A stretch of DNA of 64,000 nucleotides from Chiridota heheva. Its lineage: Eukaryota; Echinodermata; Holothuroidea; Apodida; Chiridotidae. Below the pieces are notes generated by a model that did no database searches, was not told the DNA's origin, and saw only the letters and a program-made list of their open reading frames with translations. A program made the position numbers and the translations under genes. Below, piece by piece: positions 11,324 through 64,000 of this stretch. Numbering within the stretch: position 1 is the stretch's first letter; every line of letters starts with the position of its first letter. The stretch covers positions 1 to 64,000 of the forward strand of contig JAIGNY010000178.1 in assembly GCA_020152595.1 (NCBI GenBank), written 5' to 3'.

Positions 11324-12798
11324 AGTGGTCCTGCCATGGGGGTCAGAACTTACATTAAATATGTTAATTGGGTTAATTGATTTACAAAAATATAACTTTT
11401 TCTGCCCAAAACCCAATCGATTGCGAGAAAATTGCAAAAGAAAAATACATTTTTTGTCATCTTGACAAAAAAAACAGAATAAGGCTCATTGCGCATGAAC
11501 GTCATTTTGGGAACGCCTGTATGTAAATTATGCATCGATGCCACGTACAACGTGTGTCCGCCATTGAAATTTCATGACTAGTATCGATAGCATCTCTGTT
11601 TGTTCTTCTAAAACATTACATTTTCCAAGCAAATATTAAACAAAATTTCGCAGCGTTGTGTAGACAATTCTGGATGTGTTTTGTGCACTTGACACGAATC
11701 AAGTTTTTCGGGCTTACCGGGTACAGTGTCATATTCAGCTCACGCCAGATTGTTACCCCTGTTCTGTTCGATTCAAATAGTAGCTTGACCGCATCTTCTC
11801 TGACATGTAATTTTCTACTGTTTCGCGAGTAATACAAATTCAAATGAAAGAAACAGAGGAAGAAAAAAGGAAAACAAAAATTAAGTGAGATTCGAACTCA
11901 TAACCTTTTGCTCAAAAGGCAAAGCCATAACCCACGGGGCTACTTAATCAGATGAAAATTTTAACAATTTATTTTATATATTGTGTGGAATATGATTGAA
12001 GGAAGAAAAATCAATAGAATAGAATTGAATTGTAATCATTGTGTCCATATGCCAAGCCATTAAAAAGTAAACTAACAAATGTTTCACAATTTCTTAAAAA
12101 CTTTCAATTCAAGTGCAAAAACGCAAACGGATTGCGTGAATGAACTATTCAGTTCATGTAGGCCTGTTGACTAAACGTCAAGCGACAGAGACTTGAACAT
12201 TGATAAATACAACTTCACATTTCCATTCGACTTAAAAAAAAAAAAGAAGGTAGATGTTCTTGCAAACACTTCAATTTGATTATGTTTAACAAAATATTAC
12301 CTGCGAAACAGTAAGAATTTCATGCTGACTATACGCAGGCTTTGTACTGTAGGACCATGTAAGGGTTGTAAGCCTGATCCTTCTTTCTTGTCTGCAAGTG
12401 GTTCAAATTCAAAAGGAACGACATCCCTTCATTATGAGAATGTTCTTCATTTATTTCCAAATCATTTTATCATAGCTTGAACTTGAAGATGACAAATTAA
12501 GATCTGAACAGTCCGAAAAACTTTCGCAATCAGAAGCTATTTGTACGTGGTTAGTATGTGTGTGATGCATTGTTTACAATCAGCAGTCCCTGAAATGACG
12601 TAGCAAACTGTTATGATGTCACAAATCCCTTTCAACTTTTTTTTTTGGAGCAAGCAATAAATGATCATTTCTAAGTACTTTTTCATCATGAAAATGGACT
12701 TATTTCCAGGATTTCTTGACAGATTATTTAATTTAGGGATATGAAAAACCTATAACAGGTTAAATCTCAATTTTTTTAGAAGGCATGGCAGGACCACT
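11324..12798. mobile_element. Non-autonomous DNA transposon with TTAA target duplication
   Basis: The ends are perfect inverted repeats: TTTAAAGTGGTCCTGCCATG at 11319-11338 and its reverse complement at 12784-12803. Taking TTAA as the duplicated target (11320-11323 and 12799-12802), the element is 1475 bp with AGTGGTCCTGCCATG termini. TTAA duplication is the signature of piggyBac- and Kolobok-type elements. Since TTTAAA is itself palindromic, a TA target cannot be excluded. No transposase ORF is visible; the longest ORF (75 codons, minus) is unremarkable. A tRNA-like sequence lies inside. Confidence 0.75.
11879..11949 (-). tRNA. tRNA-like sequence or pseudogene inside the TTAA transposon
   Basis: Read on the minus strand: acceptor stem GATTAAG/CTTAATT (7 pairs including one G-U), TA at positions 8-9, a short D stem GCC/GGC with GGG in the loop, an anticodon arm CCTTT/AAAGG with loop TGAGCA, and a T arm with GAGTTCGAATCTC (strong box B). 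Box A resembles TAGCCCCGTGGG. The anticodon loop has six instead of seven bases, so a functional tRNA is unlikely. If read as GAG it would be leucine. It could be a SINE head captured by the transposon or a decayed tRNA gene. Confidence 0.45.
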
Positions 12799-31000: not shown

Positions 31001-34000
31001 AGTTATGTGAAAAAGTGTGTCAATGCGTGTCTTAATCCAATCAAACCTAAATAAATGCACTGTGTGGTTGGCACAAATATATGTTTTTAAGGCCATATCT
31101 ATTTCCTAGGAAGAATTGTGTAATACCAAATTTTGAAGCTTGACTTTCCTCATATTATATCTTTTACAAAATGCATATATTATGTTTTTGAATGAAAATA
31201 CCTATAATACTTCATAAACTTTTAAGCCAAAATCATGTGCCAACACATGGAAATACGTGTAAAACCCTGAAAACCTGTGTCAGAACAATGAAAGAGTTCT
31301 GTGAAAAAGTGTGTCAATGCGTGTCTTAATCCTTTTAAAGTTAAATAAATTCACAGGATCAAGTGGTTGGCACAAATATCTGTTTTAAGTCCATATCTAT
31401 TTCCTAGAAAGCATTGTGTAATACCAAATTTTGAAAGCTCGACTTTCCTCATATTATGTCTTTTACAAAATACATATATTATATTTTTAAATGAAAATAC
31501 CTATAATACTTCATAAACTTTTAAGCCAAAAGCCTGTGCAAATACATGGAAATACGTGTAAAACCCTGAAAACATGTGTCAGAACAATGAAAGAGTTCTG
31601 TGAAAAAGTGTGTCAATGCATGTCTTAATCCTATCAAAGTTAAATAAATTCACAGGATCAAGTGATTGGCACAAATATCTGTTTTAGGTTCATATCTCTT
31701 TCTTAGGAAGATTTAAGTAATACCAATTTTGAAGCTTGACTTTCCTTATATTATATCTTTTACAAAATACATATATTATGTTTTTGAATGAAAATACCTA
31801 TAATACTTCATAAACTTTTAAGCCCAAAACATGTGCCAACACATGGAAATACGTGTAAAACCCTGAAAACCTGTGTCAGAACAATGAAAGAGTCCTGTAA
31901 AAAGTGTGTCAATGCGTGTCTCAATCCTATCAACGTTAAATAAATTCACAGGATGAAGTGGTTGGCACAAATATCTGTTTTAAGTGCATATCTATTTCCT
32001 AGGAAGAATAGTGTAATACCAGATTTTGAAAGCTTGACTTTCCTCATATTATATCTTTTATAAAATACATATTACTGTTTTTGAATAAAAATACCTATAA
32101 TACTTTATAAACTTTTAAGCCCAAAACATGTGCCAACACATGGAAATACGTGTAAACCCCTGAAAACCTGTGTCAGAACAATGAAAGAGTTATGTGAAAA
32201 AGTGTGTCAATGCGTGTCTTAATCCTTTTAAAGTTAAATAAATTCACTGTGTGGTTGGCACAAATATCTGTTTTAAGTTCATATCTATTTCCTAGGAAGA
32301 ATTGTGTAATACTAAATTTTGAAAGCTTGACTTTCCTCATATTATATCTTTTATAAAATTCATATATTATATTTTTAAATGAAAATACCCATAATACTTC
32401 ATAAACTTTTAAGCCCAAAGCCTGTGCTAATACATGGAAATACAGGTAAAACCCTGAAAACCTGTGTCAGAACAATGAAAGAGTTCTGTGAAAAAGTGTG
32501 TCAATGCGTGTCTTAATCCTTTTAAACTTAAATAAATTCACAGGATCAAGTGGTTGGCACAAATATCTGTTTTAAGTCCATATCTATTTCCTAGAAAGCA
32601 TTGTGTAATACCAAATTTTGAAAGCTCGACTTTCCTCATATTATGTCTTTTACAAAATACATATATTATATTTTTAAATGAAAATACCTATAATACTTCA
32701 TAAACTTTTAAGCCAAAAGCCTGTGCAAATACATGGAAATACGTGTAAAACCCTGAAAACATGTGTCAGAACAATGAAAGAGTTCTGTGAAAAAGTGTGT
32801 CAATGCATGTCTTAATCCTATCAAAGTTAAATAAATTCACAGGATCAAGTGATTGGCACAAATATCTGTTTTAGGTTCATATCTCTTTCTTAGGAAGATT
32901 TAAGTAATACCAATTTTTGAAGCTTGACTTTCCTTATATTATACCTTTTACAAAATACATATATTATGTTTTTGAATGAAAATACCTATAATACTTCATA
33001 AACTTTTAAGCCCAAAACATGTGCCAACACATGGAAATACGTGTAAAACCCTGAAAACCTGTGTCAGAACAATGAAAGAGTCCTGTAAAAAAGTGTGTCA
33101 ATGCGTGTCTCAATCCTATCAAAGTTAAATAAATTCACAGGATGAAGTGGTTGGCACAAATATCTGTTTTAAGTGCATATCTATTTCCTAGGAAGAATAG
33201 TGTAATACCAGATTTTGAAAGCTTGACTTTCCTCATATTATATCTTTTATAAAATACATATATTATGTTTTTGAATGAAAATACCTATAATACTTCATAA
33301 ACTTTTAAGCCCAAAACATGTGCCAACACATGGAAATACGTGTAAAACCCTGAAAACCTGTGTCAGAACAATGAAAGAGTTATGTGAAAAAGTGTGTCAA
33401 TGCGTGTCTTAATCCTTTTAAAGTTAAATAAATTCACAGTGTGGTTGGCACAAATATCTGTTTTAAGTTCATATCTATTTCCTAGGAAGAATTGTGTAAT
33501 ACTAAATTTTGAAAGCTGACTTTCCTCATATTATGTCTTTTATAAAATACATATATTATATTTTTAAATGAAAATACCTATAATACTTCATAAACTTTTA
33601 AGCCCAAAGCCTGTGCTAATACATGGAAATACAGGTAAAACCCTGAAAACATGTGTCAGAACAATGAAAGAGTTCTGTGAAAAAGTGTGTCAATGCATGT
33701 CTTAATCCTATCAAAGTTAAATAAATCACAGGATGAAGTGGTTGGCACAAATATCTGTTTTAGATTCATATCTCTTTCTTAGGAAGATTTAAGTAATACC
33801 AATTTTGAAGCTTGACTTTCCTTATATATATCTTTTATAAAATACATATTATGTTTTTGAATAAAAATACCTATAATACTTTATAAACTTTTAAGCCCAA
33901 AACATGTGCCAACACATGGAAATACGTGTAAACCCCTGAAAACCTGTGTCAGAACAATGAAAGAGTTATGTGAAAAAGTGTGTCAATGCGTGTCTTAATC

Positions 34001-36778
34001 CAATCAAACCTAAATAAATGCACTGTGTGGTTGGCACAAATATCTGTTTTTAAGGCCATATCTATTTCCTAGGAAGAATTGTGTAATACCAAATTTTGAA
34101 GCTTGACTTTCCTCATATTATATCTTTTACAAAATGCATATATTATGTTTTTAAATGAAAATACCTATAATACTTCATAAACTTTTAAGCCAAAATCATG
34201 TGCCAACACATGGAAATACGTGTAAAACCCTGAAAACATGTGTCAGAACAATGAAAGAGTTCTGTGAAAAAGTGTGTCAATGCATGTCTTAATCCTATCA
34301 AAGTTAAATAAATTCACAGGATCAAGTGATTGGCACAAATATCTGTTTTAGGTTCATATCTCTTTCTTAGGAAGATTTAAGTAATACCAATTTTTGAAGC
34401 TTGACTTTCCTTATATTATATCTTTTACAAAATACATATATTATGTTTTTGAATGAAAATACCTATAATACTTCATAAACTTTTAAGCCCAAAACATGTG
34501 CCAACACATGGAAATACGTGTAAAACCCTGAAAACCTGTGTCAGAACAATGAAAGAGTCCTGTAAAAAGTGTGTCAATGCGTGTCTCAATCCAATCAAAG
34601 TTAAATAAATTCACAGGATGAAGTGGTTGGCACAAATATCTGTTTTAAGTGCATATCTATTTCCTAGGAAGAATAGTGTAATACCAGATTTTGAAAGCTT
34701 GACTTTCCTCATATTATATCTTTTATAAAATACATATTATGTTTTTGAATAAAAATACCTATAATACTTCATAAACTTTTAAGCCAAAAGCCTGTGCAAA
34801 CACATGGAAATACGTGTAAAACCCTGAAAACCTGTGTCAGAACAATGAAAGAGTTATGTGAAAAAGTGTGTCAATGCGTGTCTTAATCCTTTTAAAGTTA
34901 AATAATTTCACAGTGTGGTTGGCACAAATATCTGTTTTAAGTTCATATTTATTTCCTAGGAAGAATTGTGTAATACTAAATTTTGAAAGCTCGACTTTCC
35001 TCATATTATGTCTTTTACAAAATACATATATTATATTTTTAAATGAAAATACCTATAATACTTCATAAACTTTTAAGCCAAAAGCCTGTGCAAATACATG
35101 GAAATATGTGTAAAACCCTGAAAACATGTGTCAGAACAATGAAAGAGTTCTGTGAAAAAGTGTGTCAATGCATGTCTTAATCCTATCAAAGTTAAATAAA
35201 TTCACAGGATCAAGTGATTGGCACAAATATCTGTTTTAGGTTCATATCTCTTTCTTAGGAAGATTTAATTAATACCAATTTTTGAAGCTTGACTTTCCTT
35301 ATATTATATCTTTTACAAAATACATATATTATGTTTTTGAATGAAAATACCTATAATACTTCATAAACTTTTAAGCCCAAAACAAAACATGTGCCAACAC
35401 ATGGAAATACGTGTAAACCCCTGAAAACCTGTGTCAGAACAATGAAAGAGTCCTGTAAAAAAGTGTGTCAATGCGTGTCTCAATCCTATCAAAGTTAAAT
35501 AAATTCACAGGATGAAGTGGTTGGCACAAATATCTGTTTTAAGTGCATATCTATTTCCTAGGAAGAATAGTGTAATACCAAATTTTGAAAGCTTGACTTT
35601 CCTCATATTATATCTTTTATAAAATACATATTAATGTTTTTGAATGAAAATACCTATAATACTTCATAAACTTTTAAGCCAAAATCATGTGCCAACACAT
35701 GGAAATACGTGTAAAACCCTGAAAACCTGTGTCAGAACAATGAAAGAGTTCTGTGAAAAAGTGTGTCCTAATCCTTTTAAAGTTAAATAAATTCACAGTG
35801 TGGTTGGAACAAACATCTGTTTTTAGTTTATATCTATTTCCTAGGAAGAATTGTGTAATACTAAATTTTGAAAGCTCGACTTTCCTCATATTATGTCTTT
35901 TACAAAATACATATATTATATTTTTAAATGAAAATACCTATAATACTTCATAAACTTTTAAGCCAAAAGCCTGTGCAAATACATGGAAATATGTGTAAAA
36001 CCCTGAAAACATGTGTCAGAACAATGAAAGAGTTCTGTGAAAAAGTGTGTCAATGCATGTCTTAATCCTATCAAAGTTAAATAAATTCACAGGATCAAGT
36101 GATTGGCACAAATATCTGTTTTAGGTTCATATCTCTTTCTTAGGAAGATTTAAGTAATACCAATTTTTGAAGCTTGACTTTCCTTATATTATATCTTTTA
36201 CAAAATACATATATTATGTTTTTGAATGAAAATACCTATAATACTTTATAAACTTTTAAGCCCAAAACATGTGCCAACACATGGAAATACGTGTAAACCC
36301 CTGAAAACCTGTGTCAGAACAATGAAAGAGTTATGTGAAAAAGTGTGTCAATGCGTGTCTTAATCCAATCAAACCTAAATAAATGCACTGTGTGGTTGGC
36401 ACAAATATCTGTTTTTAAGGCCATATCTATTTCCTAGGAAGAATTGTGTAATACCAAATTTTGAAGCTTGACTTTCCTCATATTATATCTTTTACAAAAT
36501 GCATATATTATGTTTTGAATGAAAATACCTATAATACTTCATAAACTTTTAAGCCAAAATCATGTGCCAACACATGGAAATACGTGTAAAACCCTGAAAA
36601 CCTGTGTCAGAACAATGAAAGAGTTATGTGAAAAAGTGTGTCAATGCGTGTCTTAATCCTATCAAAGTTAAATAAATTCACAGGATCAAGTGGTTGGCAC
36701 AAATATCTGTTTTAAGTTCATATCTATTTCCTAGGAAGAATTGTGTAATTTTGAAGCTTGACTTTCCTCAGAATTATT
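28077..36778. repeat. Satellite array 1, about 295-bp unit, about 29 copies
   Basis: Units start ATCAAAGTTAAATAAATTCAC. They contain TTGGCACAAATATCTGTTTT, GAAGCTTGACTTTCCTCATA, AATACCTATAATACTTCATA, CCTGTGTCAGAACAATGAAA and GTGTCAATGCGTGTCTTAAT. Variant types (TCTATTTCCTAGG versus TCTCTTTCTTAGG; CAGGATCAAGTG versus CAGTGTGGTTGG) alternate in a recurring order, suggesting duplication of multi-unit blocks. No conserved ORF is present. The array ends in a unit truncated after GAATTGTGTAATTTTGAAGC. Confidence 0.95.
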
Positions 36779-37395
36779 ACTTTTAATACTGAACAAGTAG
36801 AGAAAGTGACTGGTTTACATGGTCTCTTAAAGAGATAATTATATTTTACATCTTTATCTAAAACCAGTGGCATATCTTAAAAGAAGGAAAAGGGCCTTGT
36901 AAGGAATTTCCAAAAATCCAGAAAATTTGCATAACAGAAAAATCAGTATGTTGAATTGTTTTGGTAATCCTGATGAAAGCCATCTTGAAAAAATTAATAG
37001 AATATTTCGAAAATTGAATCTTTATGTTAGGCCTACTTAGCGGTTAGAGTTATCAAGTTATTTCCTAACATTTTAGATGTTTGTCCTTAAATTATCTTAC
37101 TCAAAAACTCCAAAGCTTTCCTTAAAATATCATAACTTGTCCTAAAAATTTCTGAAGTATCTTTTCTAAAATTATGCAACATTCTCCCCAAAACTTCTCA
37201 GGTTTTCCTCAAAATATCTTAATTTTCTTTAAAATGTTCTTATTTTCCCCTCAAAATACCCAAAGTCACTTTTCCTCATATTTCAAAATTCTCAAAGTTT
37301 TTCTCTTAGAATTTCATTTCTTCTATGTGTAGGGAAGGGAGGGTAAACTGGGCTTTTATTCATGATCCCCACTCCCCCTTCCTTTAAAAAAGTCT
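36779..37395. repeat. Satellite module tail T1
   Basis: Begins GAATTATTACTTTTAATACT and includes TGGTCTCTTAAAGAGATAAT (the empty SINE site) and a CTCAAAATAT/TTTTCCT-rich stretch. Repeated with few changes at 39231-40158. Confidence 0.85.
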
Positions 37396-37666
37396 TAGCT
37401 AAGTCACGGCCTGATTCACTGGGTAACTCTATTGTGTTTTAACGAGATTAGTGTAATCCTGCTTTCTTTAAACAAAAACACACTTCACACCTCTTTACTG
37501 TCAGAGACCACAACAATCCAGCAGGTAGTGCATAATAAGGCAAAGAAAGCCAAGCAGGCAGTCACAACAAAGGCTTCTGTGGAGATCACTTTAGTGAAAC
37601 CAAGTGAACCTATACTATAGGTGCATGTAGCTTGCACAAAGTACAGTGTTTATCTTAATTGACTAT
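37396..37666 (+). repeat. Satellite module head H2, with possible captured terminal exon
   Basis: Same block as H1. After a good acceptor-like tract (CACCTCTTTACTGTCAG, about 37486-37502) an open frame encodes TTIQQVVHNKAKKAKQAVTT and then KASVEITLVKPSEPIL, stop near 37618. The H3 copy keeps the frame but with Ala-Glu, Thr-Ser, Pro-Leu and Glu-Lys changes. The protein is unknown to me. It could be the captured last exon of a host gene, but the mostly amino-acid-changing differences suggest it is no longer constrained. Confidence 0.6.
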
Positions 37667-39230
37667 CAAAGTTAAAATAAATTTACTGTGTGCTTGGCAC
37701 AAATATCTGTTTTAAGTTCATATCTATTTCGAAGAGGACTTGTGTAATACCAAATTGTGAAAGCTTGACTTTTCTCAAAATATGCATATTATGTCTTTAA
37801 AAAAATACATATATAATGTTTTGAATGAAAATACTTATAATACTTCATAAACTTTAAAGCAAAAACCTGTGCCAACACATGGAAATACATGTAAAACCCT
37901 GAAAACCTGTGTCAGAACAATGAAAGAGTTATGTGAAAAAGTGTGTCCTAATCCTTTTAAAGTTAAATAAATTCACAGTGTGGTTGGAACAAACATCTGT
38001 TTTTAGTTTATATCTATTTCCTAGGAAGAATTGTGTAATACTAAATTTTGAAAGCTCGACTTTCCTCATATTATGTCTTTTATAAAATACATATATTATA
38101 TTTTTAAATGAAAATACCTATAATACTTCATAAACTTTTAAGCCCAAAGCCTGTGCCAATACATGGAAATACGTGTAAACCCCTGAAAACCTGTGTCAGA
38201 ACAATGAAAAAGTTATGTGAAAAAGTGTGTCAATGCGTGTCTTAATCCAATCAAACCTAAATAAATGCACTGTGTGGTTGGCACAAATATCTGTTTTTAA
38301 GTCCATTTCTATTTCCTAGTAAGAATTGTGTAATACCAAATTTTGAAGCTTGACTTTCCTCATATTATATCTTTTACAAAATGCATATATTATGTTTTTG
38401 AATGAAAATACCTATAATACTTCATAAACTTTTAAGCCAAAATCATGTGCCAACACATGGAAATATGTAAAACCCTGAAAACCTGTGTCAGAACAATGAA
38501 AGAGTTATGTGAAAAAGTGTGTCAATGCATGTCTTAATCCTATCAAAGTTAAATAAATTCACAGAATCAAGTGGTTGGCACAAATATCTGTTTTAGGTTC
38601 ATATCTCTTTCTTAGGAAGATTTAAGTGATACCAAATTTTGAGGCTTGACTTTCCTCATATTATATCTTTTACAAAATACATATATTATGTTTTGAATGA
38701 AAATACCTATAATACTTTATAAACTTTTAAGCCCAAAACATGTGCCAACACATGGAAATACGTGTAAACCCCTGAAAACCTGTGTCAGAACAATGAAAAG
38801 TTATGTGAAAAAGTGTGTCAATGCGTGTCTTAATCCAATCAAACCTAAATAAATGCACTGTGTGGTTGGCACAAATATCTGTTTTTAAGTCCATTCTATT
38901 TCCTAGGAAGAATTGTGTAATACCAAATTTTGAAGCTTGACTTTCCTCATATTATATCTTTTACAAAATGCATATATTATGTTTTTGAATGAAAATACCT
39001 ATAATACTTCATAAACTTTTAAGCCAAAATCATGTGCCAACACATGGAAATACGTGTAAAACCCTGAAAACCTGTGTCAGAACAATGAAAGAGTTATGTG
39101 AAAAAGTGTGTCAATGCGTGTCTTAATCCTATCAAAGTTAAATAAATTCACAGGATCAAGTGGTTGGCACAAATATCTGTTTTAAGTTCATATCTATTTC
39201 CTAGGAAGAATTGTGTAATTTTGAAGCTTG
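37667..39230. repeat. Satellite array 2, about 5 units
   Basis: Same 295-bp satellite: five units and a partial one, ending in the same truncated unit (GAATTGTGTAATTTTGAAGC) as array 1. This shows the whole head-array-tail module was duplicated. Confidence 0.95.
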
Positions 39231-51550: not shown

Positions 51551-51827
51551 CCAATATAGTATTGGCATATAATAGATAGTATTGGCATATAATAGATAGT
51601 ATTGGCATATAATAGATAGTATTGGTATATAATAGATAGTATTGGTATATAATAGATAGTATTGGTATGTAATACATAGTATTGGTATGTAATAGATATC
51701 ATTGGTATATAATAGATACTATTGGTATATAATAGATAGTATTGGTATATAATAGATAGTATTGGTATATAATAGATAGTATTGGTATATAATAGATAGT
51801 ATTGGTATATAATAGATAGTATTGGTA
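51551..51827. repeat. 20-bp AT-rich minisatellite, left part
   Basis: Unit AGTATTGGTATATAATAGAT, about 14 copies with point variants (GGCATATAAT, GGTATGTAAT). The same unit resumes at 59676-59865, so the DIRS-like element inserted into this array. Confidence 0.95.
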
Positions 51828-51966
51828 TTTACTTCAAGTTATACCTTACCTTCCATGCTATTAATATGCAATCTGGTCACATGACCTGATTGTAACGCAC
51901 TTCTAACCGACCCTAAAAAAACGTAGTAACCAGCCAAGCCCTGACCTCCATAATACCTCTGTACTA
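51828..51966. repeat. Left inverted terminal repeat of the DIRS-like element
   Basis: Starts TTTACTTCAAGTTATACCTT. It runs inverted to 59500-59640 and its extreme end is inverted to the internal complementary region. Confidence 0.88.
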
Positions 51967-53039
51967 CATCACTCTTTTTCAGCGCGTTGTTAGCACTAAC
52001 ATCGCTGAAAACTGGTAATTTTTATTTTATTAATAATTTACCTTTCTAACTCTTTTCTCTTCGGCAGCATCTACCTGGAGGGTTTTTACGCTGCCCTTTC
52101 TCATCTGGCTCGCCTTTTTAAAGTCTTTCGAGGTAAGGGCGAGGTAGCCATGGGTCCGAGATTTCTTCGGCCGACCTACACGACTTTACCCGTGTAGCCT
52201 ACACTTAGAATAGCGGGTTTCTGTCTCCATTCGTACAAAGCGAGTGGCTAGTCCGAGAGCGTCCTACTCTCGTGGTGAGTGTTTTAGGTCCTAGAGCACC
52301 AGGTGTGCCTGTCTAGGGGACCTCTTACCCGGGTTTAGGTTTTCCACCCTTTGCCCGCCCCACGACGAGGAACCTAGCGTTATAACTTTGCATATGTTTT
52401 AACACCTTAGGATATCTCTGTACAAGTTCTCGTATGCATTAGGCCAATTTCTTTTTCTGATTTTGGCGCATGCGCATTGGGTCGACGTCTCCGTCGGTGT
52501 TCGGGAGTCGGCTCGAGCTTCTCCAAGGAGCTACAGTTGTTACAAGAGAGCTTATTTTTGTATTAACGTTACCAGCATATGAATATTTTCATTTTTCTTA
52601 CATAAATTAAAGACAAAGTTTTTAATTTTCAAGCTTGTTTGTTGGGGCTTGGGAGAGACCGGATGGGGGTCTCTCTGATGTACTGTTTAAAGGATATCTA
52701 ATCTCTTCTTTTTATCTTTACAGTCTCCGAGTACTCAGTGGTTTGTGTTTTCCACGCTACCCCAGCGCTTGTAAAGGTTTAACGTTGGATGCGTTTTCTC
52801 GGGTTTATAATTTTTTTTCAGATAGACAATTTTTTCTGTTGAAATTGTTTTGATGTACTACTCTGCTTTGCCTCGTCTCTCTTTTAGCGTGATCGTAGGA
52901 TCATAGGTACTTCCCCTAGTAGGGGCGCTATTGCCGTATTCGTTGTTTGTACGCATTGATATATGTTCTTCTCTTTTCAGAGATGCTGTATTTGTATGTA
53001 CGCATTGATATATGTTCTTCTCTTTTCAGAAATGTTGAG

Positions 53040-53460
53040 AATGATTAACTCAGTGGCGTTGCGCCTTAGGTTGTGTCCCTAGTAAACCACCTGCTAAAAA
53101 CAGGTTGTGCTCCTAGTGGACCACCTAGAGTTACGAAAGTTCAGAGAGAAAGAAGATACGATCTTAGTCCTCTTCGTGGCGTTGCGTCACTTAAAGTTGA
53201 AGAGCTAAGAGAGAGATAAGATATCCTCTTCGTGGCGTTGCGCCACCTAGAGTTGAAAAGGTAAGAGAGATGAAAAGGTAAGAGAGATAAGCTCTGACTA
53301 GCTCAGTGGCGTTGCACCTTAGGTTGTGTCCCTAGTGAACCACCTGCCAAAAACAGGTTGTGCTCCTAGTGGACCACCTAGAGTTAAGTAAGTTCAGAGA
53401 GAAAGAAGATAACCTCTTAGGGGCGTTGCGCCCCTAAGTTGTAAAGAGATAATTAAGAGC
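53040..53460. repeat. Five hairpin repeats of the GTGGCGTTGCGCCAC type
   Basis: Stem-loops at about 53053, 53178, 53233, 53305 and 53421. They share a GTTGCG-like core with stem variants (GTGGCG/CGCCAC, GGGGCG/CGCCCC), separated by GAGAGATAAG and ACCACCTAGAGTT segments. Confidence 0.75.
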
Positions 53461-53790
53461 CATACCGTTGTAGCGGGGCGAACGGTTCTATTGGACGGTT
53501 CCATACAGTTCCGCGGCCCGTTGTGACGGGGCGAACGGTTCCATTGGACGGTTCCATACGGTTCCGCGGCCCATTGTTACGGGCAAACGGTTCCATTGGA
53601 TGGTTCCATACTGTTCCGCGGCCCGGTGTTACGGGGCGGACCGTTCCATTGGACGGTTCCGCGGCCTGTGTTTACGGGGCGGACGGTTCCATTGGACGGT
53701 GCCGTGACCCATACGGTTCCGCGGCCCGTGTTTACGGGGCAAACGGTTCCATTGGACGGTTCCGCGGCCCGTGCTTACTGTTCCGTTTAT
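53460..53790. repeat. GC-rich tandem repeats with CCCGTGTTTACGGG hairpins
   Basis: About six units of 40-65 bp combining GGTTCCATTGGACGGTTCC, CCGCGGCCCGTG and TTACGGGGCGAACGG. The theme returns more degenerately at 54430-54640. Confidence 0.8.
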
Positions 53791-53794
53791 AACA

Positions 53795-56560
53795 GGATAA
53801 CGTACTCCGTACGGCTAGTCCGGTTATACGCCCACTAGCTACCAAGCTACGTGGTCAGGTGACAGGTGACATTCTTGGCAAGAAAGTATAACATTGAGAC
53901 AGCTATTTTTCTTTTTGGTCCCGTAGCCATTAGCTACGTAGTTCCACGGCTCGTGTGAACGAAATTAAGATTGTCTACGTTGAACGTTACAGTTCCATAT
54001 TTATTTTTACCAGTATCATAGACATGGAGGACAGGTCCCCGCGTGTCAATCTTTTACTCACCCAGGATGTCCCGCGATGCGTAGCGTGCAAACGCTTCTT
54101 TAAATTACGCTCAGGTGACATCCATCTCACGTGATACGCGTGTAGATTATGCTGCGAGTCAAATCCTTGTACTCTTTGCAGCGATTGGGACCTAGTAGCG
54201 TGGGCGGAGCACAGACTCCACCGCGACCGGTACTTTCAAAGAGCGGCGGAAAAAGTGGAGAAGCGACGGGCTGATAGGCCCTCTTTGTCTTCCCCCCACC
54301 GCCACCCAGGCCCAAAGCCAGGGAGGCGGGGCCGCCGCCCACTCTCAGCGGGCGCCTCTTGAAAGCGTGCACTGCGCTTAATCTGGAAGTATAGCATTGA
54401 GACAGCTATTTTTCTTCTTGGTCCCGTAGCCAAAGGCTACGGTCAGTTCACGGTTTCATACGGTTCCACGGCCCATGTTTATGGGTCCGTGCGAGTTCCA
54501 CGGTCCGTGTTTTACGAGTCCGTGCGGTTCCATTGGGCGGTTCCGCGGCCCGTGTTTACGGGTCCGTCACGGTTCCATATGATTCCACGGTCGCGTTTCA
54601 CGGGTCCTCTTGGTTCCATTGGGCGGCTCCAGTGAGCGGAACTTTTTAACGGGATAACGTATACTGTACGGTTAACCGGTTATCGCCCACTAGCTACTAC
54701 GCTCGTGGTCAGGTGACTGATGACTTTCTTTACAAGAAGTATAGCATCACGACAGCTATTTTCTTCTTGGTCCCGTGGCTATTAGCTACGCAGTTCCACG
54801 ACTTCGTGCGACGCAATTAAGATTGTCTGCGTTGAGCATTACAGTTCCGTAATTATTTTCACCAGTATCATGGACATGGAGGACAGGTCTCCAGTGTCAA
54901 TGCTCTACACACCCATGATGTCCCGGCGTGGCGTGCTAACGCTTCTTTGATTTACGCTCGGTCACATCCATCTCACGCTGCGTTGGCGTGCAGATTATGC
55001 TGTGAGTCCATTCTTTGTACTCTTTGCAGCGATTGCATGGGTTCAAGCGGCGTGGTCGGAGCACAGACTCCACCGCGACCCGTATTTTCAAGGTGCAACC
55101 GAGAGTGCGGCTCAGGTGTTCGGATGCGTGCGGCTCCGTAGTTTTGTAACGGTATATATCGTACACCGTCGATTTACCCGGATATGCACCCACTAGCTAC
55201 GAGCTATGTGGCCAGGTGACAAGTGATAATCTTCACAAGAAGTATAGCACCGTGAGCTATTCTCTTCATGGTTCCGTAGCCATTAGCTACGCACTTCCAC
55301 GATCATGTGAACACCATTCATACGATTATCGCGTTGAGCGTTACACTTCGCAATTACTTTCACCAGTATCATAGGCACGGAGGACAGGCCTCTGAGCGTC
55401 GATGCGTTACGCACCTAAGAGGTCCCGCTATGCATAGCGTGCAAACGCTTCTCTGAAGACCGTGCGGGCCTATGCGACTTCAGAGTTTTTAAGCGGGATA
55501 ACGTACACTGTCACGATAAACCCGAAATTGAGTCCGCTAGCTAGGAAGCTACTTGGTCGGGGATAGGTGACAATCTTCACGAGAAGTATAGCATCACGAG
55601 AGCTATTTTCTTCCCGTCTCTGTAGCCATTAGCTATGCTGTTTCACGGCCGTGTGAACTGCCTCTGTAGGATTTTCCGCTGAAGCGTTACAGTTCGCGAT
55701 GTTTTGCACCTATATCGCCGACACGAAGGGCAGGTCTCTAGTGTCGGTGCGTTCTGCGCCTTGAATGTCCTGCGATGCGTCGCATGTAAACGCTTCTTAG
55801 GTTGCGCTTTGGTGTTATCGACATGTTTAAACCCGTGTACACCGCTGTGGTCCTTGGTTCGCGATGGGACGGTAGGCCCACAAGAGGCGGCGCCCTACGG
55901 GTCATCGTGAGTTAGTACCCTTTTTATGGCTAGTCGTAGAGCTATTGGATTACTTGCGGGTCCATTAGGGTCCGTGCGGCTCTGGTGATCGGTTCCATAT
56001 GGCCCCACGGCTTGTTTTTCCACGCCCGTAACGGTCCGTAAAACAACTTTCGGCGCTCCGTCGGGGCATGGGATGCGTTTGGGTCCGTAGGGCTGCATAG
56101 TTCTGCAGCAAGGTAGCGTACAACGTCGTCACCCGATAGTATACCCTTAAGCTTTTTAGCTACATGGTCAGGTGATAGTAACAATCTTAGGAGATCTCCA
56201 CGTCCGTGTGAGCTGACTTGGTGAGATTTTCGCGTTGAGCGTCTCGGTTCCGCATAGTTTTCACCAGTTTCTTGGACACGAGGACAAGTCCCGTTTGTCG
56301 ATGCGTCACGCTCCCAGGATGCGTCGCGTGTTAGCGCTTGCTCGGGTTTCGAGGCCTAGCGCTCGGGTGATAAGAATTCCTTCTTTACGGGAGGCATACC
56401 ATCACGAGCTATTCTCTCCGTGTTACGTAGTTCCGACTGTTCAAACTACTCTGAATATGGTTCTTGCGTCAAACCAGACCTTGGCTCAAATTCTACAGAT
56501 ATTACAGCGGTTTACGTACAGCGTCGATAAACCCTGGTAACGGAACGGAATATTGCGACC
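53795..56560 (+). repeat. Tandem diverged blocks carrying the gag-like ORF (5-6 copies)
   Basis: Each block opens with GGATAACGTACNCTGTACGG-like sequence (about 53795, 54650, 55145, 55495, 56110, and a short 56510). It continues CCCACTAGCTAC, GTGGTCAGGTGAC, GAAGTATAGCATCACGA, GTAGCCATTAGCTACG and CACCAGTATCATGGACA, then enters the gag-like frame. Period varies from 350 to 870 bp because parts are deleted in later copies. Confidence 0.75.
54024..54362 (+). pseudogene. Gag-like zinc-knuckle ORF of the DIRS-like element, copy 1
   Basis: From ATG at 54024: a short leader, then RCVACKRFF, a GDIHLT segment, a TGA (54132-54134), YACRLCCESNPCTLCSDW, WAEHRLHRDRYF, a basic helix (EKVEKRRADRP) and a Pro/Arg-rich tail, stop at 54360-54362. 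The spacing C-x2-C...D-x-H-x2-[stop]-x2-C-x-L matches the C-x2-C...D-x-H-x2-C-x2-C pattern I recall from DIRS gag, with the third Cys replaced by TGA. Copies 2 (54877), 3 (55378), 4 (55718) and 5 (56274) are shorter and more broken. Confidence 0.6.
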
Positions 56561-56619
56561 GTCAGCGCGGGTAGCAGTGTTCGCGTCGCTTTTTCTTGCT
56601 GGGGCGTTTTTAGCGTTCG

Positions 56620-57300
56620 GCGGCAGTCCCCACGCGTAGCCACGGCTCTGGCGGCTCGTAGTGATTATATACAAGCGGAGTTAACGGCCTACACCAGCAG
56701 CGCGGCTGTGGTAGAGGACTAGTAGCCATGAACTACAGAGTTACGCGGCCGTTTTCTCTTACGGGACACGACTGAGTACGGACGGTAGTCCCCTCTTCCC
56801 AGCGCAGCTACCGGTTTCGTAGCTCCGTGATGAAACAAACTAAGTTTACGACTCGTATAGCTTGCGTAGCACGTGAACTCCTCCGTATTCCTTACGGCCC
56901 CAGTATATTTTAGCTATTTTCAGCGGGAATGCGTGCTGAGTACATCTTCCCTACGCGTAGCCACTTACTCGGTGGCCCGTGGTGAATAGAAGTATACTGA
57001 GATAACGACTCACGTTACAGATGTAATGCGTTAACGCTATCATAGACCTCGGCGGTTCTTTCGTACTGATAGCTACTACGTTCGGGACACGTACCAGTAC
57101 CAGTTGTCCCCTCGCATAGCCACGAGCTTTTTGCTCCGTGGTGCACAGAGACAAAGTTGGCGGATGACTAGTGGTTTTTACTTGTCATGCTGGCGCCTTT
57201 GTAGACCCATAACGGATCTATAATACTTAACGGGTCTCATACTTATGCGGCGCAAGTCCCCCCAGTAGCCACGCGCTTCTCAGCTCCGTGGTGCAGGGTG
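56620..57300. repeat. Five hairpins of the TAGCCACG-loop-CTCCGTGGTG type
   Basis: At about 56636, 56806, 56955, 57115 and 57267, spaced about 150-170 bp, each preceded by GTCCCCTC/CTTCCC and followed by a GAATNAACGG-like segment. The stems differ between copies while pairing is largely kept. Confidence 0.7.
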
Positions 57301-59354
57301 TTTAACGGAATTAACGGTCCGTGTAGTATACACAGGGCGTCAACTCTTCGTGATTTCTACCCCAGTGCTGGGGTTTATGACTCATACGGTTGGCGTAGTA
57401 CGTTACACCCCCTTGTCAATATTAACTCCATGAAGGATATTTTTCTTGACAATAGGTGGCCTTTTGATAGACAACCTCACGTTTGGGGTAGCTATTACCA
57501 ACAACAGCGCGTATGGTTCATTCCATACTTTACACCTTCTTAAAGCTGTCTCCATGCGGTTTCACGGCCTGTTACTTAACTGCCCGTACAGACATCGGTA
57601 TTAGTTTTCTCCACACCTGTAGCCGTAGGCTCAGCGGTTTCAAGGTTGTTACTATCGTGAGTGCGTTAACACTTTTTCCAGTCAACTTCTTAGACAAGTT
57701 TCGCTGTTGATAGGTGTGGCCTGGAGCTACGCGATTCATAGCTGCTACAGTTTTCAGACCCGGCAGGTGCCGTCGACTATGTTATGCGGCTCCGCGATCT
57801 TACGACCCATACCGTCTCACAGCTACATAGCCTTACGGTTGGCAGCCCTTCTTGTATCGTTTTATATTAACGGCCTGCCTTTTTATTTCGCTAGCCTTTG
57901 ATTTTTGGTCAGTAGGTTTAAACAACCTTTGCTCAGGATCGGCAGTCTTTTCTGGACTGCAGGTGGTGTCATTCCGTACCTCCGCTTTACACGTTCAGTC
58001 GGTGGCCACCCCCTTTAGTGGTGGTTGGTGCTCCCACCTGGTGTAAGGAACGAGGTTTTCACCCGTCAGATTTCACCGTCGGTGCCACGGAGGCTTCTTG
58101 ATCGAGGTAGGGGCACTTTTCTTGTGACCCCTTATGGTGAAACTTGGACGGGTACTTGACCTTTTCGACAGGCAGAATGCCAGGGTTTTTGTTCACCTTT
58201 TACCGCTAGTGCTGGCGTGGCTTTTCAGTTTCCCGCCGTTTTGCACCACTGTTGTGGTCTCCTCTTCGGACAGAGAGGTATTGACTCCAGGAGTTCTGGA
58301 ATCGTTCCTCGTCTCGGCGCAGGGCGAACTTTGGCTGCTCAAGACCTTGCAGGCTTCACGTCACGAGCCTCGGGTCAGGGGCGATTTTTGTCTCTTTCCG
58401 GGCTCCGAGGACTGCATCTCCGTCCCCGGGCGCCGTTTGATGGTGTGGCCTTAGCCGCCTTTCCTCGGCGTAGCATGGCCTTTCTGAGAGGTTGTTCATC
58501 CCCCTCCCTGTTGTGGAGGTGGGCCCTCTCTCGAACTTGGTTCAGTCATGAGCTCTGGGATAACTTGCAGCTATCCACCGAGGTTTTTCCAGTTGGGTCT
58601 ACGGTCTTTGACTCGCGACCACTGGACAGTTACACGGAGATCTCTTCGTAGTGTGTCATGCATCACTTTCCTCCGTTCGATCGTCCAGCAACTTTCTTTC
58701 CAAGTAGTCCGATCTGTTCATAGAACGGCCGCGGTATGCACTCGGGTTCGGGGCATCACCTCTTTTCACGGTATGCACTCTGGTTCGGGGCATCACCTTT
58801 TTTTACGGGATCTCTCGTGCCGCCGTTCGGGAAAACGCTTTTTCTCTTGTTTTTGGTCTGACTCACTTTTCGACGTTCGTGTTCCGCGCTAACTTTTGCT
58901 CTTACGCGGTTCTGGCGCTTCTAATAATTTTCCCTTGTCCGGGATTTCTTCAATTCGTTTTTGTTGGTACACGCCGTTCCCAATCGTAGTTTCCTCGTCA
59001 GTTCCGTCTCGTGAACGAATCCGGTGTGGTTTGTGGCATTTTTTGTGGACACTTTGCTGTAATTGTGTCCAAACGCTCTTCCGGTTGGCTTGTTTTTCTG
59101 GGCTTTTCGCTCAGGTTATTTCGATGTTTGCCTCCGTTACTGTCAACAAATGGTGCCTTGTTCGGTTTGACCGTACCTCGACGTGGTTTACTATGTTTTA
59201 GTTCTTCCCACTCTTGAGGTCTTTCATCCTTTAGAGGAGAAGGAATTTCGTCCTTTAAACGGGATTCGATTCGTGTGAGTTTTCGTACCAGCAATTAAAA
59301 AAAAAAAAAAAAATGTGCTTCGGTCTGAACTCCCTTCCTTCCTATACTCGGTTG
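57300..59354. other. Interior of the DIRS-like element, unassigned
   Basis: GC-rich with several stop-interrupted frames (for example 58134-58454, 58217-58651 and 58548-58892, plus). This is where RT/RNase H/recombinase would be expected, but I see no diagnostic motif. An A-run lies at 59297-59313. 58736-58805 has a short duplication (GGTATGCACTC-GGTTCGGGGCATCACC). Confidence 0.35.
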
Positions 59355-59460
59355 CAATCTGATTGCATATTGATAGCATGGAAGGTAAGGTATAAATTGA
59401 AGTAAATTTACCCGCTAAGCGTAGCGGGGATATTTCTGAGAGTTATACTTACCTTCCATG
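59355..59460. repeat. Internal complementary region of the DIRS-like element
   Basis: GCATATTGATAGCATGGAAG then GTAAGGTATAAATTGAAG is the inverse of the left terminus. The adjacent TTTACCCGCTAAGCGTAGCG, GGATATTTCTGAGAG and TTATACTTACCTTCC are the inverse of the right terminus. The join is AAATTT at 59404-59409. Confidence 0.78.
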
Positions 59461-59675
59461 CATCCCCCTCGCCTCTCCTCTCGTTCAGGCCTCGGTGGAA
59501 TGTTGGTGAGGTAGTACAGAGGTATTATGGAGGTCAGGGCTTGGCTGGTTACTACGTTTTTTTAGGGTCGGTTAGAAGTGCGTTAGAATCAGGTCATGTG
59601 ACCAGATTGCATATTAATAGCATGGAAGGTAAGTATAACTCTCGTAAATATCCCCGCTACACTTAGCGGGGTAAA
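59461..59675. repeat. Right inverted terminal repeat, ending in a GC hairpin
   Basis: 59500-59640 is inverted to the left repeat. The last 25 bases form the hairpin CCCCGCTACACTTAGCGGGG before GTAAA. Confidence 0.85.
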
Positions 59676-59865
59676 TATAATAAATAGTATTGGTATATAA
59701 TAGATAGTATTGATATATAATAGATAGTATTGGTATGTAATAGATAGTATTGGTATGTAATAGATAGTATTGTTATGTAATAGATAGTATTGGTATGTAA
59801 TAGGAAGTATTGGTATATAATAGATACTCTTGGTATATAATAGATAGTATTGGTATATTAAAGAT
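59676..59865. repeat. 20-bp AT-rich minisatellite, right part
   Basis: About nine AGTATTGGTATATAATAGAT units with variants, continuing the array at 51551-51827. Confidence 0.93.
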
Positions 59866-60249: not shown

Positions 60250-62043
60250 TATAATATTTCAGATGAAAAATCAAAAAGTTGTAAGGATGGCATTTAGTCA
60301 TATTATAGCCTGAAAGCATATCTCTACGAAAAAAACAAATTGACTACTTAAAACGGCTTGTTCAACGTCTAGTAAAAAGATTGAAATGAAAGGGCATTCT
60401 CAGAAAAGGTGACTTATTGTTTCCTCATGTGTCTTACAAAATGTACAAAGCGAGGTAGAACTGATATCCATACGACTTAACAGGTAATTAGTGCCTAAGA
60501 TGCGATGAATACAACGATATTAAAAGAACTGAATTTTACTGTCTCTTACACTACAAAAGGGAGCAAGAAAAATATTTGACCCGCACTGAGAAGTGCTTAA
60601 ATTAAACTCATCATTTCAATGCATCACACAAGAGGGCAAGGTAACACTAGACTTAACTAGACAACGGTAAGTATAAAGAGAAGGTTTGGGAGTTAACAGA
60701 ATGGGAGTTAAAGCATTCAAGGTATCATTATTAGTCGTATCACTGCTTAAGTGATGTTTCCAATCCTGTGGGATGGCATCTAAAAGACCATAATAAAGGG
60801 TGAAAGGACAAATATTAATACCATACGTAAGAATGAAAGGAGTCATATGAAAGAGAGTGTTTGTGATTGCCAAACAAATCAACAATCCGGAGAACACCCT
60901 TAGAGTGAAGAAAATTATAATGAACAATGTTATGATTAATCTTAATTAGGGAATTATTCCAGATGATCTCGTTACCAAAATTATGAGTAGGAACACGGTA
61001 AGTAAACTTTGACCACGCAGAGCACACATCATTTACAAAAGCGTTATCAACCACAACATCATTACACTTAAAATTACAAGAGAAAATAAAAGGACCTCCA
61101 TACTTCTTTAATTATAAATCAAAGAAAATATTCCAAGGTGCGCTATCAACTGAGACATGCCTTTTAACCCATGTAGCTTTCAAACTGTGAATAAAGCTTA
61201 TAATGTGCGTTGCATTCAAACCACCAATAGGTAATGTATTGATAAGAGGTGTACGTTTAACTCTCTCCTGTTTGCAATCCCAGATAAAACGGAAAAGAAT
61301 GGATTATAGACTTTTAATAACACTGGTAGGGGGATTGGGTAGTACTTGAAAAAAAGAAAGAAAAGTTGGGATAAACCAAGTCTTAACAATTGTAATCCCA
61401 CCAATTGGGATAAGGTCTATTGAGACCAAAGATTGAGCATACGTTTTAAGATAGAAAGTTTCGGAGGATAGTTCACACTATTGTGATCAAAGGTAAGACC
61501 TAACATGTGGGCCCAGATTCCAATTAAGACCAAAAAATATTCAGAAAAAACGGAAAGCTGCTCTTTAAATTGCCCAAAGGAAAAATCGAAGTCATTATCT
61601 CTATTAACTTTTAAACCCGACGCCGCTTCAAATATATCAAAAATATGAATAACCTCCTTGAGGGACTCAAAACTACTGTACCATCAATACCAGAAATAGA
61701 AATACCATGAATACGTGGATTATCGATAACATTCAGAGTTAAAATTTCGGCACAAATGATTAAACAGGTACGGACTCAGGGGGCAGCCTTGGCGCACGCC
61801 CCTTGAGATATTAAAATCAGCACAGGTAAAACCATTATTAATAACCCTACCAACACAGCTAGAATAAATTATTTTTATCCACCTTTTAAACATGTCACCA
61901 AAACTGATAAAATCGAAACATTTCATAATAAAACCCCAATCTAGTCCATCAAAGGCCTTTTCAAAGTCAACGAATAATAACAGGACATTTTTACCAGTGT
62001 TAGAACAATAATCAATCAGATCTAATACATAAGGAATAATCAA
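60250..62043 (-). pseudogene. L1/Tx1-like LINE ORF2 fragment, YADD block deleted
   Basis: Minus-strand order: YVLDLIDYCSNTGKN, LLLFVDFEKAFDGLDW (RT motif A), INNGFTCADFNISRGVRQGC then PLSPYLFN (motif B), NPRIHGISISGIDG. The sequence then jumps straight to SLKEVIHIFDIFEAASGLKV, so the motif C (YADD) segment is deleted. Thumb and C-terminal parts follow in pieces: LLKVYNPFFSVLSGIANRRE, GGLNATHIISFIHSLKATWV, NDVCSAWSKFTYRVP, and the terminal zinc knuckle CTFCKTHEETISHLF-stop-EC (C-x2-C-x7-H-x4-C with Trp mutated to stop) near 60401-60460. The 5' side dissolves into the 35-bp array. It cannot encode an active RT. Confidence 0.85.
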
Positions 62044-64000
62044 TCAGATCTAATACATAACGAATATTCAATAATCAATCAGATCTAATACATAACGAAT
62101 ATTCAATAATCAATCAAGGAATAATCAATCAGATCTAATACATAACGAATATTCAATAATCAATCAGATCTAATACATAATTCAATAACCAAACAGATCT
62201 AATTTTAACGATTATTCAATAATCAATCAGATCTAATACATAACGAATATTCAATAATCAATCAGATCTAATACATAACAAATATTCAATAATCAAACAG
62301 ATCTAATACATAACGAATATTCAATAATCAAACAGATCTAACACATAACGAATATTCAATAATCAAACAGATCTAATACATAACGAATATTCAATAATCA
62401 ATCAGATCTAATACATAACAAATATTCAATAATCAATCAGATCTAATACATAACGAATATTCAATAATCAATCAGATCTAATACATAACGAATATTCAAT
62501 AATCAATCAGATCTAATACATAACAAATATTCAATAATCAAACAGATCTAATACATAACGAATATTCAATAATCAAACAGATCTAATACATAACGAATAT
62601 TCAATAATCAATCAGATCTAATACATAACGAATATTCAATAATCAAACAGATCTAATACATAATGAATATTCAATAATCAATCAGATCTAATACATAACT
62701 AATATTCAATAATCAATCAGATCTAATACATAACGAATATTCAATAATCAAACAGATCTAATACATAACGAATATTCAATAATCAATCAGATCTAATACA
62801 TAACGAATATTCTATAATCAATCAGATCTAATAATAACGAATATTCAATAATCAAACAGATCTAATACATAACGAATATTCAATAATCAAACAGATCTAA
62901 TATATAAACGAATATTCAATAATCAATCAGATCTAATACATAACGAATATTCAATAATCAATCAGATCTAATACATAACGAATATTCAATAATCAATCAG
63001 ATCTAATACATAATGAATATTCAATAATCAATCAGATCTAATACATGACTAATATTCAATAATCAATCAGATCTAATACATAACGAATATTCAATAATCA
63101 ATCAGATCTAATACATAACTAATATTCAATAATCAATCAGATCTAATACATAACGAATATTCAATAATCAAACAGATCTAATACATAACGAATATTCAAT
63201 AATCAATCAGATCTAATACATAACAAATATTCAATAATCAAACAGATCTAATACATAAGAATATTCAATAATCAATCAGATCTAATACATAACGAATATT
63301 CAATAATCAATCAGATCTAATACATAACGAATATTCAATAATCAATCAGATCTAATACATAATGAATATTCAATAATCAATCAGATCTAATACATAACTG
63401 GAATATTCAATAATCAATCAGATCTAATACATAACGAATATTCAATAATCAAACAGATCTAATACATAACGAATATTCAATAATCAATCAGATCTAATAC
63501 ATAACGAATATTCAATAATCAATCAGATCTAATACATAACGAATATTCAATAATCAATCAGATCTAATACATAACGAATATTCAATAATCAAACAGATCT
63601 AATACATAATGAATATTCAATAATCAATCAGATCTAATACATAACTGGCCATTTTTAATATTCAATAATCAATCAGATCTAATACATAACGAATATTCAA
63701 TAATTAATCAGATCTAATACATAACTAATATTCAATAATCAATCAGATCTAATACATAACGAATATTCAATAATCAATCAGATCTAATACATAACGAATA
63801 TTCAATAATCAATCAGATCTAATACATAACGAATATTCAATAATCAATCAGATCTAATACATAACGAATATTCAATAATCAATCAGATCTAATACATAAC
63901 GAATATTCAATAATCAATCAGATCTAATACATAACGAATATTCAATAATCAATCAGATCTAATACATAACGAATATTCTATAATCAATCAGATCTAATAC
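62007..64000. repeat. 35-bp minisatellite, 55 or more units, derived from LINE coding sequence, open at window end
   Basis: The unit starts CAATCAGATCTAATACATAA and ends CGAATATTCAATAAT. Its complement contains the LINE codons NIRYVLDLIDY that directly precede CSNTGKN in the adjacent LINE. Variants are CAATCAG/CAAACAG and AACGAAT/AACAAAT/AACTAAT. The first units (62007-62220) are more irregular. It runs off the window, so its length and right flank are unknown. Each unit contains the palindromes AGATCT and GAATATTC. Confidence 0.96.

Follow-up and report, generated by a model that had tools for sequence, protein, structure and literature searches.

Is an element with well-kept ends and no intact genes the remains of a single insertion, or a member of a lineage that is moved by another? 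The question is raised by a locus in the sea cucumber Chiridota heheva, within a stretch of 64,000 nucleotides (positions 1 to 64,000 of contig JAIGNY010000178.1, referred to here as the window) taken from a 1.1-Gb genome assembly of 3744 contigs (GCA_020152595.1). A sequence-only reading of the window had described a DIRS-type terminal architecture around a decayed, GC-rich interior and had offered two explanations for it, a non-autonomous element mobilised in trans or repeat homogenisation. Having compared the element with its relatives in the same genome, we propose that it probably belongs to a long-lived, non-autonomous DIRS1-derived lineage that is mobilised in trans and has repeatedly re-acquired the 5' leader and gag start of its helper. 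Both the mobilisation and the capture of leaders are what we infer from sequence comparisons.

The element has the termini of a DIRS1-like retrotransposon

The element extends from a left terminus at 51827 to a right terminus at 59677 (7.9 kb); the span first proposed, 51828-59675, was correct in position and slightly off at both ends. Its inverted terminal repeats (ITRs) are 98% complementary over 128 nt (51845-51972 and 59506-59633), as near to identity as had been claimed. Internal complementary regions (ICRs) repeat the termini: the complement of the left terminus lies at 59361-59407 (47 nt, 96%), and that of the right terminus, corresponding to 59620-59670, lies at 59411-59461 (51 nt, 94%). 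Both meet at the junction AAATTT (59404-59409), which confirms the DIRS-type arrangement read from the sequence alone, and the right extension, outside the ITR match, has its complement in the right ICR. Read as its reverse complement, the ICR contains GCGGGTAAATTTACTTC: the right end runs directly into the left start, with a single G missing relative to the right end. Mismatches between termini and ICRs are few. Genome-wide pattern counts were controlled with reversed patterns, every one of which gave 0; the exact circle-junction motif occurs 961 times, so the junction is not a product of chance.

The element sits in a 20-bp AT-rich minisatellite. Joined directly, the left flank, the end trinucleotide and the right flank are periodic at 81 of 83 positions, so that the minisatellite reads through without the element and the reported absence of a target duplication holds.

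ITRs, two ICRs overlapping at the circular junction, a right extension, NTT termini and the lack of a target duplication are all features of DIRS1-like elements. More specifically, the available text of PMC3266345 gives NTT termini and a complementary circular junction as the DIRS1-like pattern, and the likeness includes left and right ICRs meeting at a 3-bp circular junction, the right extension, the ATT start and the missing target duplication; the ATT/ATA/AAT set of BmDIRS1 is the same as that of the window element (PMC3266345). Unlike DIRS1-like retrotransposons, the window element has no intact gag, reverse transcriptase (RT) or tyrosine recombinase (YR) frames and carries a stack of leader/gag-start units, and its 7.9 kb compare with 3.8-6.3 kb for the DIRS1-like elements tabulated in that text (PMC3266345). 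Since these coding features are missing, the element, judged by its sequence, is a non-autonomous derivative of a DIRS1-like element; as is required of such a derivative, many copies share its termini and lesions, and an autonomous-type partner is present in the same genome.

Gene loss is shared by a large family of copies

Genome-wide searches with the ITR and with the ICR gave many matches, and in each search 40 of about 1600 first-look candidates were scored. We chose 20 loci among those that best matched the window element in ITR or ICR, and added 1 further locus; the sample is therefore biased to the relatives of the window element. One locus (L047, with 2351 N) was dropped from the later comparisons, including that of the ends, which covers 21 copies: 20 of the 21 fetched loci and the window copy.

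All 21 copies start with ATTTACTTC, and their last three bases are ATT in 11, ATA in 8, ACT in 1 and GTT in 1. Flanks match over 3 bp in four copies (L030, and three copies in (TA)n) and over 5 bp or more in three, all of which lie in (TA)n runs; outside such runs no match reaches 4 bp. Among the 21 copies examined, target-site duplications, which would have spoken against a DIRS element, were thus not seen. Four copies in all (L034, L035, L043 and L049) are inserted inside (TA)n, and the flanks average 73% A+T.

Seventeen copies (5.5-8.0 kb) keep the interior of the window element in the same order, some with deletions, and four lack it (L033, L034, L040 and L049). Because this interior is common to 17 copies, the pol and YR genes were lost in an ancestor of the family and not through decay of the window copy, and the description of the interior as decayed has to be adjusted to that extent. 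A tag from the shared non-autonomous interior has 848 matches in the genome and an autonomous tag has 371 (up to 3 mismatches allowed for either; L045 and L046 were not used when tags were picked), a ratio that is only rough, since the sets of copies used in choosing the tags differ in size. Together with the 961 junction motifs, these counts answer the suggestion that other copies with the same termini be sought.

The ratio of observed to expected CpG is 0.95-1.29 in the 21 elements versus 0.33 over the initial 51.5 kb of the window. Within the interior, C>T differences are barely more frequent at CpG (3.5%) than elsewhere (2.6%), and the element copies seem to be free of methylation-type CpG decay.

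An autonomous-type partner shares the termini

Autonomous-type copies have the same termini as the window element. RT frames are present in two of them, L049 (780 aa; RVT_1, E 1.3e-21) and L040 (RVT_1, E 3.1e-17). A search of the genome with the L040 RT protein gave at least 118 matches (116 of 3860 candidates scored). In front of the RT frame of L049 stands a frame of 725 aa, without a Pfam match, which we take to be gag-like from its position and Cys pattern. Overlapping the RT frame is a frame of 978 aa with a C-terminal R...HxxR, followed by W at +23 and Y at +10; such a spacing is known from tyrosine recombinases. The region has no match in the family libraries. RNase H scores fall below the curated cut-offs (RT_RNaseH, 16.1 bits in L040; RVT_3, 13.1 bits in L049), and the L049 frames have no Pfam match to a methyltransferase domain. 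The autonomous relative that the sequence-only reading called for is accordingly present as far as RT and termini go, with a putative YR suggested by motif and an RNase H match that is weak. No relative of the YR-like region of L049 was found in viral_contigs. Elsewhere in the genome, fifteen of the Phage_integrase matches listed exceed the Pfam cut-off (for example C984:10928-11365), and other tyrosine-recombinase elements may be their source.

Copies with the same termini and an RT-bearing relative make mobilisation in trans of a non-autonomous element the better of the two explanations offered at the outset.

The interior derives largely from the partner

The window element has no gag, RT-RNase H or YR frame of its own. 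Its longest stop-to-stop frame is 163 aa, and 20 window frames gave one weak, unrelated hit against Pfam. The interior is indeed GC-rich: 1-kb bins of the element have a GC content of 0.43-0.54, compared with 0.22-0.42 in most other bins of the window, with GC-rich exceptions at 7-10 kb, 21 kb and 24 kb, where there are tandem repeats.

Searched with the partner proteins (tblastn), the window element matches the gag N-terminus in at least five places, at 81, 50, 48, 39 and 40% identity, the last two with E-values of only 0.004 and 0.018; the same search gave no significant match to RT or YR (best YR piece, E 0.06). An nhmmer profile of the repeated unit, built from four window units and two autonomous units, finds five units, U1 to U5. 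A second profile, built from three autonomous copies, recovers the units as well as short pieces of the pol/YR region that lie to their right in colinear order (E 1.3e-11, 2.1e-12 and 0.0046 in the window copy), with no match at E 0.01 in any of 31 controls (30 dinucleotide shuffles and one reversed sequence). Single-sequence searches for this remnant reached E 3e-15. The three pieces are 0.58, 0.62 and 0.55 identical to L049; for the first piece, the only one so compared, shuffles averaged 0.44 and did not exceed 0.49. These matches suggest that the interior of the element derives largely from the autonomous partner.

Variable sites are spread over the interior without a clear 3-base periodicity, and we therefore take it to be non-coding. 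The gag-like frame of U1 is open over 79-100 aa in 3 of the 17 copies (L041, L045 and L048), as is expected of a recent acquisition; in the other 14 it is interrupted by stops or breaks in the frame, or is incomplete, with one stop in the window copy. Few mismatches between termini and ICRs, set against the approximately 40% divergence of the pol remnant, argue that the insertions are recent and the lineage is old.

Leader/gag-start units form a graded stack

Identity of the window units to L049, L040 and L034 declines away from the 5' end, from 0.90-0.94 for U1 through 0.84-0.85, 0.75-0.77 and 0.67-0.69 to 0.52-0.55 for U5. The ladder from U1 to U4 was measured in 12 of the 17 copies (L035, L042, L043, L044 and L046 have no complete series), and identity declines in order in all 12. 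In each of the 12, moreover, U1 is closer to an autonomous unit (0.92-0.96) than to U2 of its own copy (0.81-0.88). Autonomous-type copies that have a unit, three in number, have exactly one each, and L033 has none.

A tree of units from eight of the 17 non-autonomous copies, with four units each, and three autonomous-type units is a ladder in which U4, U3 and U2 each occupy one side of a branch with support of 100/98 or better. U1 is polyphyletic and mixed with the autonomous units, that of subfamily A grouping with L040 (99/97) and that of subfamily B with L034 (99/97); L033, being without any unit, stands outside this tree. On the same set, approximately unbiased (AU) tests rejected a clade of all units together (p-AU 3.4e-4), of U1 alone (4.6e-4) and of U1 with U2 (3.8e-5).

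We lean, by a little, towards reading the stack as a time-ordered record of a parasite tracking its helper, with U1 the newest unit and U5 the oldest, and with subfamilies A and B having taken their latest leaders independently from two autonomous lineages. On this reading, every change in the leader and gag start of the autonomous lineage was followed by uptake of the new version, and the outdated one became the next rung.

Leaders of two subfamilies follow different autonomous lineages

Subfamily A was drawn mainly from the ITR list and subfamily B from the ICR list. A sliding comparison of 6 rows of A and 8 of B (14 of the 17 copies) shows that their interiors differ mostly by 0.06-0.13, whereas the leader at element positions 451-900 differs by 0.21-0.25. 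Within subfamilies, the same part of the leader differs by 0.024-0.040 and the interior mostly by 0.02-0.09. Single representatives stand for each group in the sliding comparison with autonomous copies. In the leader block, B (L031) lies at 0.03-0.07 from L034 versus 0.18-0.27 from L040 and L049; for A (L048), the distance to L051, which is the leader of an RT-bearing copy, is 0.03-0.05.

The same pattern is found in trees. Over element positions 450-1080, in a tree of 17 non-autonomous and 4 autonomous-type rows, subfamily A groups with L040, L049 and L051, and subfamily B with L034; a single clade of non-autonomous leaders is rejected (log-likelihood 299 lower, p-AU 2e-78). Two copies stand outside this tree: L033, which is internally deleted, and L050, which has N at its 5' end and stands outside one further tree. 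For the 3' 430 bp, B joins A, L040 and L049, away from L034 and L033 (100/99). Set side by side, the leader tree and the 3' tree imply a mosaic origin for L034 or for one or both of the subfamilies. From these mosaic trees we infer repeated re-acquisition at the 5' end. Repeat homogenisation, the other explanation first offered, is also right in part: the 5' leader tracks the autonomous copies, and the interior does not.

A proposed cycle of mobilisation and leader capture

The proposed cycle would begin with RNA transcribed from the left terminus, which would be packaged and reverse-transcribed by the proteins of the partner. Circularisation would use the ICR as template for both ends, and the partner's tyrosine recombinase would then integrate the circle at an ATT-like site. 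By template switching during co-replication, or by exchange between genomic copies, the element may repeatedly take on the 5' leader and gag start of whichever autonomous lineage accompanies it; the unit that had served before would be left behind and decay, producing the graded stack U1-U5. We hypothesize that the leader and gag start of the helper carry the signal by which helper proteins accept an RNA. If they do, keeping this part of the helper current would make sense for the parasite.

Alternative explanations

Inverted termini by themselves would also fit a DNA transposon. We give this explanation practically no credence: ICRs that encode a circle junction, RT-bearing copies with the same termini and the lack of a consistent target duplication led us to reject it, and scanning 20 frames of the window and 14 of the partner against Pfam gave RT, weak RNase H, a few weak unrelated families and no DDE transposase, which between these termini would have told against a DIRS element. 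It is also very improbable that a single autonomous DIRS copy inserted here and decayed in place. An interior without a long frame and a broken gag start are what such decay would leave, but the interior tag recurs 848 times, and the interior is found in 17 copies with its order unchanged, apart from deletions in some; this interior common to the family copies refutes decay of one copy. In addition, the few mismatches between termini and ICRs, as against a pol remnant only about 58% identical to the partner, imply that gene loss long predates the insertion in the window.

In a history without capture, internal tandem duplication would have produced U1-U5, and the two subfamilies would have diverged together with their helpers, the leader evolving fast. 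Leader and U1 splits do follow autonomous lineages, the directions of exchange are not resolved, and the leader of subfamily A is variable beyond element position 900, all of which accord with such a history. We nevertheless hold it to be unlikely: at positions 451-900 the leader is no more variable than the interior within subfamilies, yet far exceeds it between them, U1 is nearer to autonomous copies than to its own U2 in every copy measured, and the three unit-clade tests reject its simple versions, on which ground purely internal tandem duplication was demoted. Gene conversion or ectopic exchange between genomic copies, instead of template switching in replication, is a tenable route for the sharing of leaders, to which we assign appreciable though lesser weight. 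About 960 junction-bearing copies in one genome are ample substrate for it, and nothing decisive speaks against it; were it the route, tracts of the interior should have passed from copy to copy as well. Finally, the GC-rich interior may be kept because its RNA is structured or serves in packaging, or what is kept may be a short peptide from the gag start. The order maintained in 17 copies (with deletions in some), the barely raised C>T at CpG, the tag matches shown of the 848, all exact (though exact ones were apparently listed first), and the U1 gag start open in 3 of 17 copies could be read in this way. Diversity, however, is roughly even along the interior and the gag start is broken or incomplete in 14 of 17 copies, and we consider such a function doubtful.

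Several observations weigh against repeated capture by a lineage mobilised in trans. The step that adds a unit is itself not seen. Four autonomous-type leaders (L034, L040, L049 and L051) were placed, and L034, like L033, is a broken or deleted copy; the trees do not orient the exchanges, and L034 could have taken its leader from subfamily B. Beyond element position 900 the leader of subfamily A itself varies by 0.07-0.12, and the 3' tree neither shows nor rejects A and B as one clade (77/92). The YR-like region of L049 has no match in Pfam, PHROGs or NCBIfam and one chance-level chain in PDB, and its contig is absent among the 40 Phage_integrase matches listed for the genome; L049 thus has a putative tyrosine recombinase, assigned by motif and position. 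Among six copies tested, the signal of the pol remnant is weak in some (E 0.0065 in L045; one piece in L031), and about 1.5 kb of the interior (56426-57983) is unassigned. In some copies the minisatellite/U1 region has stop-to-stop frames as long as 311 aa, from which a short product may be made.

Features of the element and the window

The features of the element and its flanks are collected in Table 1. Just upstream of the ICR is a run of 17 A (59297-59313), and the translated frames of L033 and L034 have a similar, lysine-coding A-run near their 3' ends. In the leader, a duplicated stretch at 52940-53035 ends in polypyrimidine-AG and resembles a repeated 3' splice site. Elsewhere in the window are a 20-bp minisatellite (7050-9766; about 137 copies) whose GC skew is extreme and reaches 0.8, a 294-bp satellite of about 37 copies (28104-39219) and a 35-bp satellite of about 56 copies that runs off the window end (62035-64000). 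A tRNA-like match on the minus strand (11878-11949) is the only Rfam hit in the window at the gathering score.

Table 1. Coordinates of the element's features and flanks within the window (UTR, untranslated region).
Feature	Position	Strand	Basis or remark
Left flank, 20-bp AT-rich minisatellite (target site)	51556..51826	.	TRF; joined flanks periodic at 81/83
Left terminus (ATT start) and left ITR	51827..51974	+	
5' leader block, about 0.2 or more different between subfamilies, common with autonomous lineages	52276..53476	+	Sliding comparisons; tree of element positions 450-1080
Leader minisatellite, units of about 53 bp	53465..53785	+	
Unit U1: 5' UTR and gag-like N-terminus, ATG at 54024, one in-frame stop	53787..54366	+	0.90-0.94 identity to autonomous copies
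Unit U2	54645..55116	+	0.84-0.85 identity to autonomous
Unit U3	55144..55469	+	0.75-0.77 identity to autonomous
Unit U4	55489..55822	+	0.67-0.69 identity to autonomous
Unit U5, fragmentary	55984..56372	+	0.52-0.55 identity to autonomous
GC-rich interior common to non-autonomous copies	56426..57983	.	
Pol/YR-region remnant, degenerate, internally deleted, colinear	57984..58839	+	nhmmer; 0.54-0.67 identity, up to three aligned pieces; 0/31 controls
3' region homologous to autonomous copies, strong from about 59216; A-run 59297-59313	58864..59360	+	
Left ICR, ending in junction AAATTT (59404-59409)	59361..59409	+	
Right ICR	59404..59461	+	
Right ITR	59506..59633	+	
Right extension and end trinucleotide ATA	59634..59677	+	
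Right flank, same 20-bp minisatellite as left	59678..59858	.	

Relation to known systems and significance

Non-autonomous elements that share their ends with an autonomous partner are reportedly found among long terminal repeat (LTR) elements, for instance Dasheng with RIRE2, and likewise elements of the LARD or BARE-2 type. Unlike the window element, LTR elements use an integrase mechanism and make target duplications. Term searches of the literature, with subscription literature and Repbase outside their reach, returned no paper on a non-autonomous DIRS element.

The nearest tyrosine-recombinase precedent met is SIRE, a truncated, non-autonomous form (about 0.4 kb) of VIPER in trypanosomes, whose mobility the available text leaves open (PMC6681497). 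Like the window element, it is a non-autonomous derivative of a tyrosine-recombinase retrotransposon; unlike it, SIRE comes from another YR group (VIPER), and that text mentions neither a stack nor mosaics with helper lineages (PMC6681497). In grasses, non-autonomous pararetroviruses keep their regulatory sequence in step with that of autonomous partners through region-specific recombination, a tracking similar to that proposed here (PMC5491270). These are, in contrast, plant viruses with DNA genomes, present as endogenous copies, and graded, superseded units are not mentioned in the text available (PMC5491270).

If serial capture is true, the stack would be an internal chronology of the coevolution of helper and parasite. 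With it one could test directly how retroelements that lack RT and recombinase can outlast one helper lineage after another, and to which part of the helper, the leader with the gag start, a parasite must stay matched in order to be carried.

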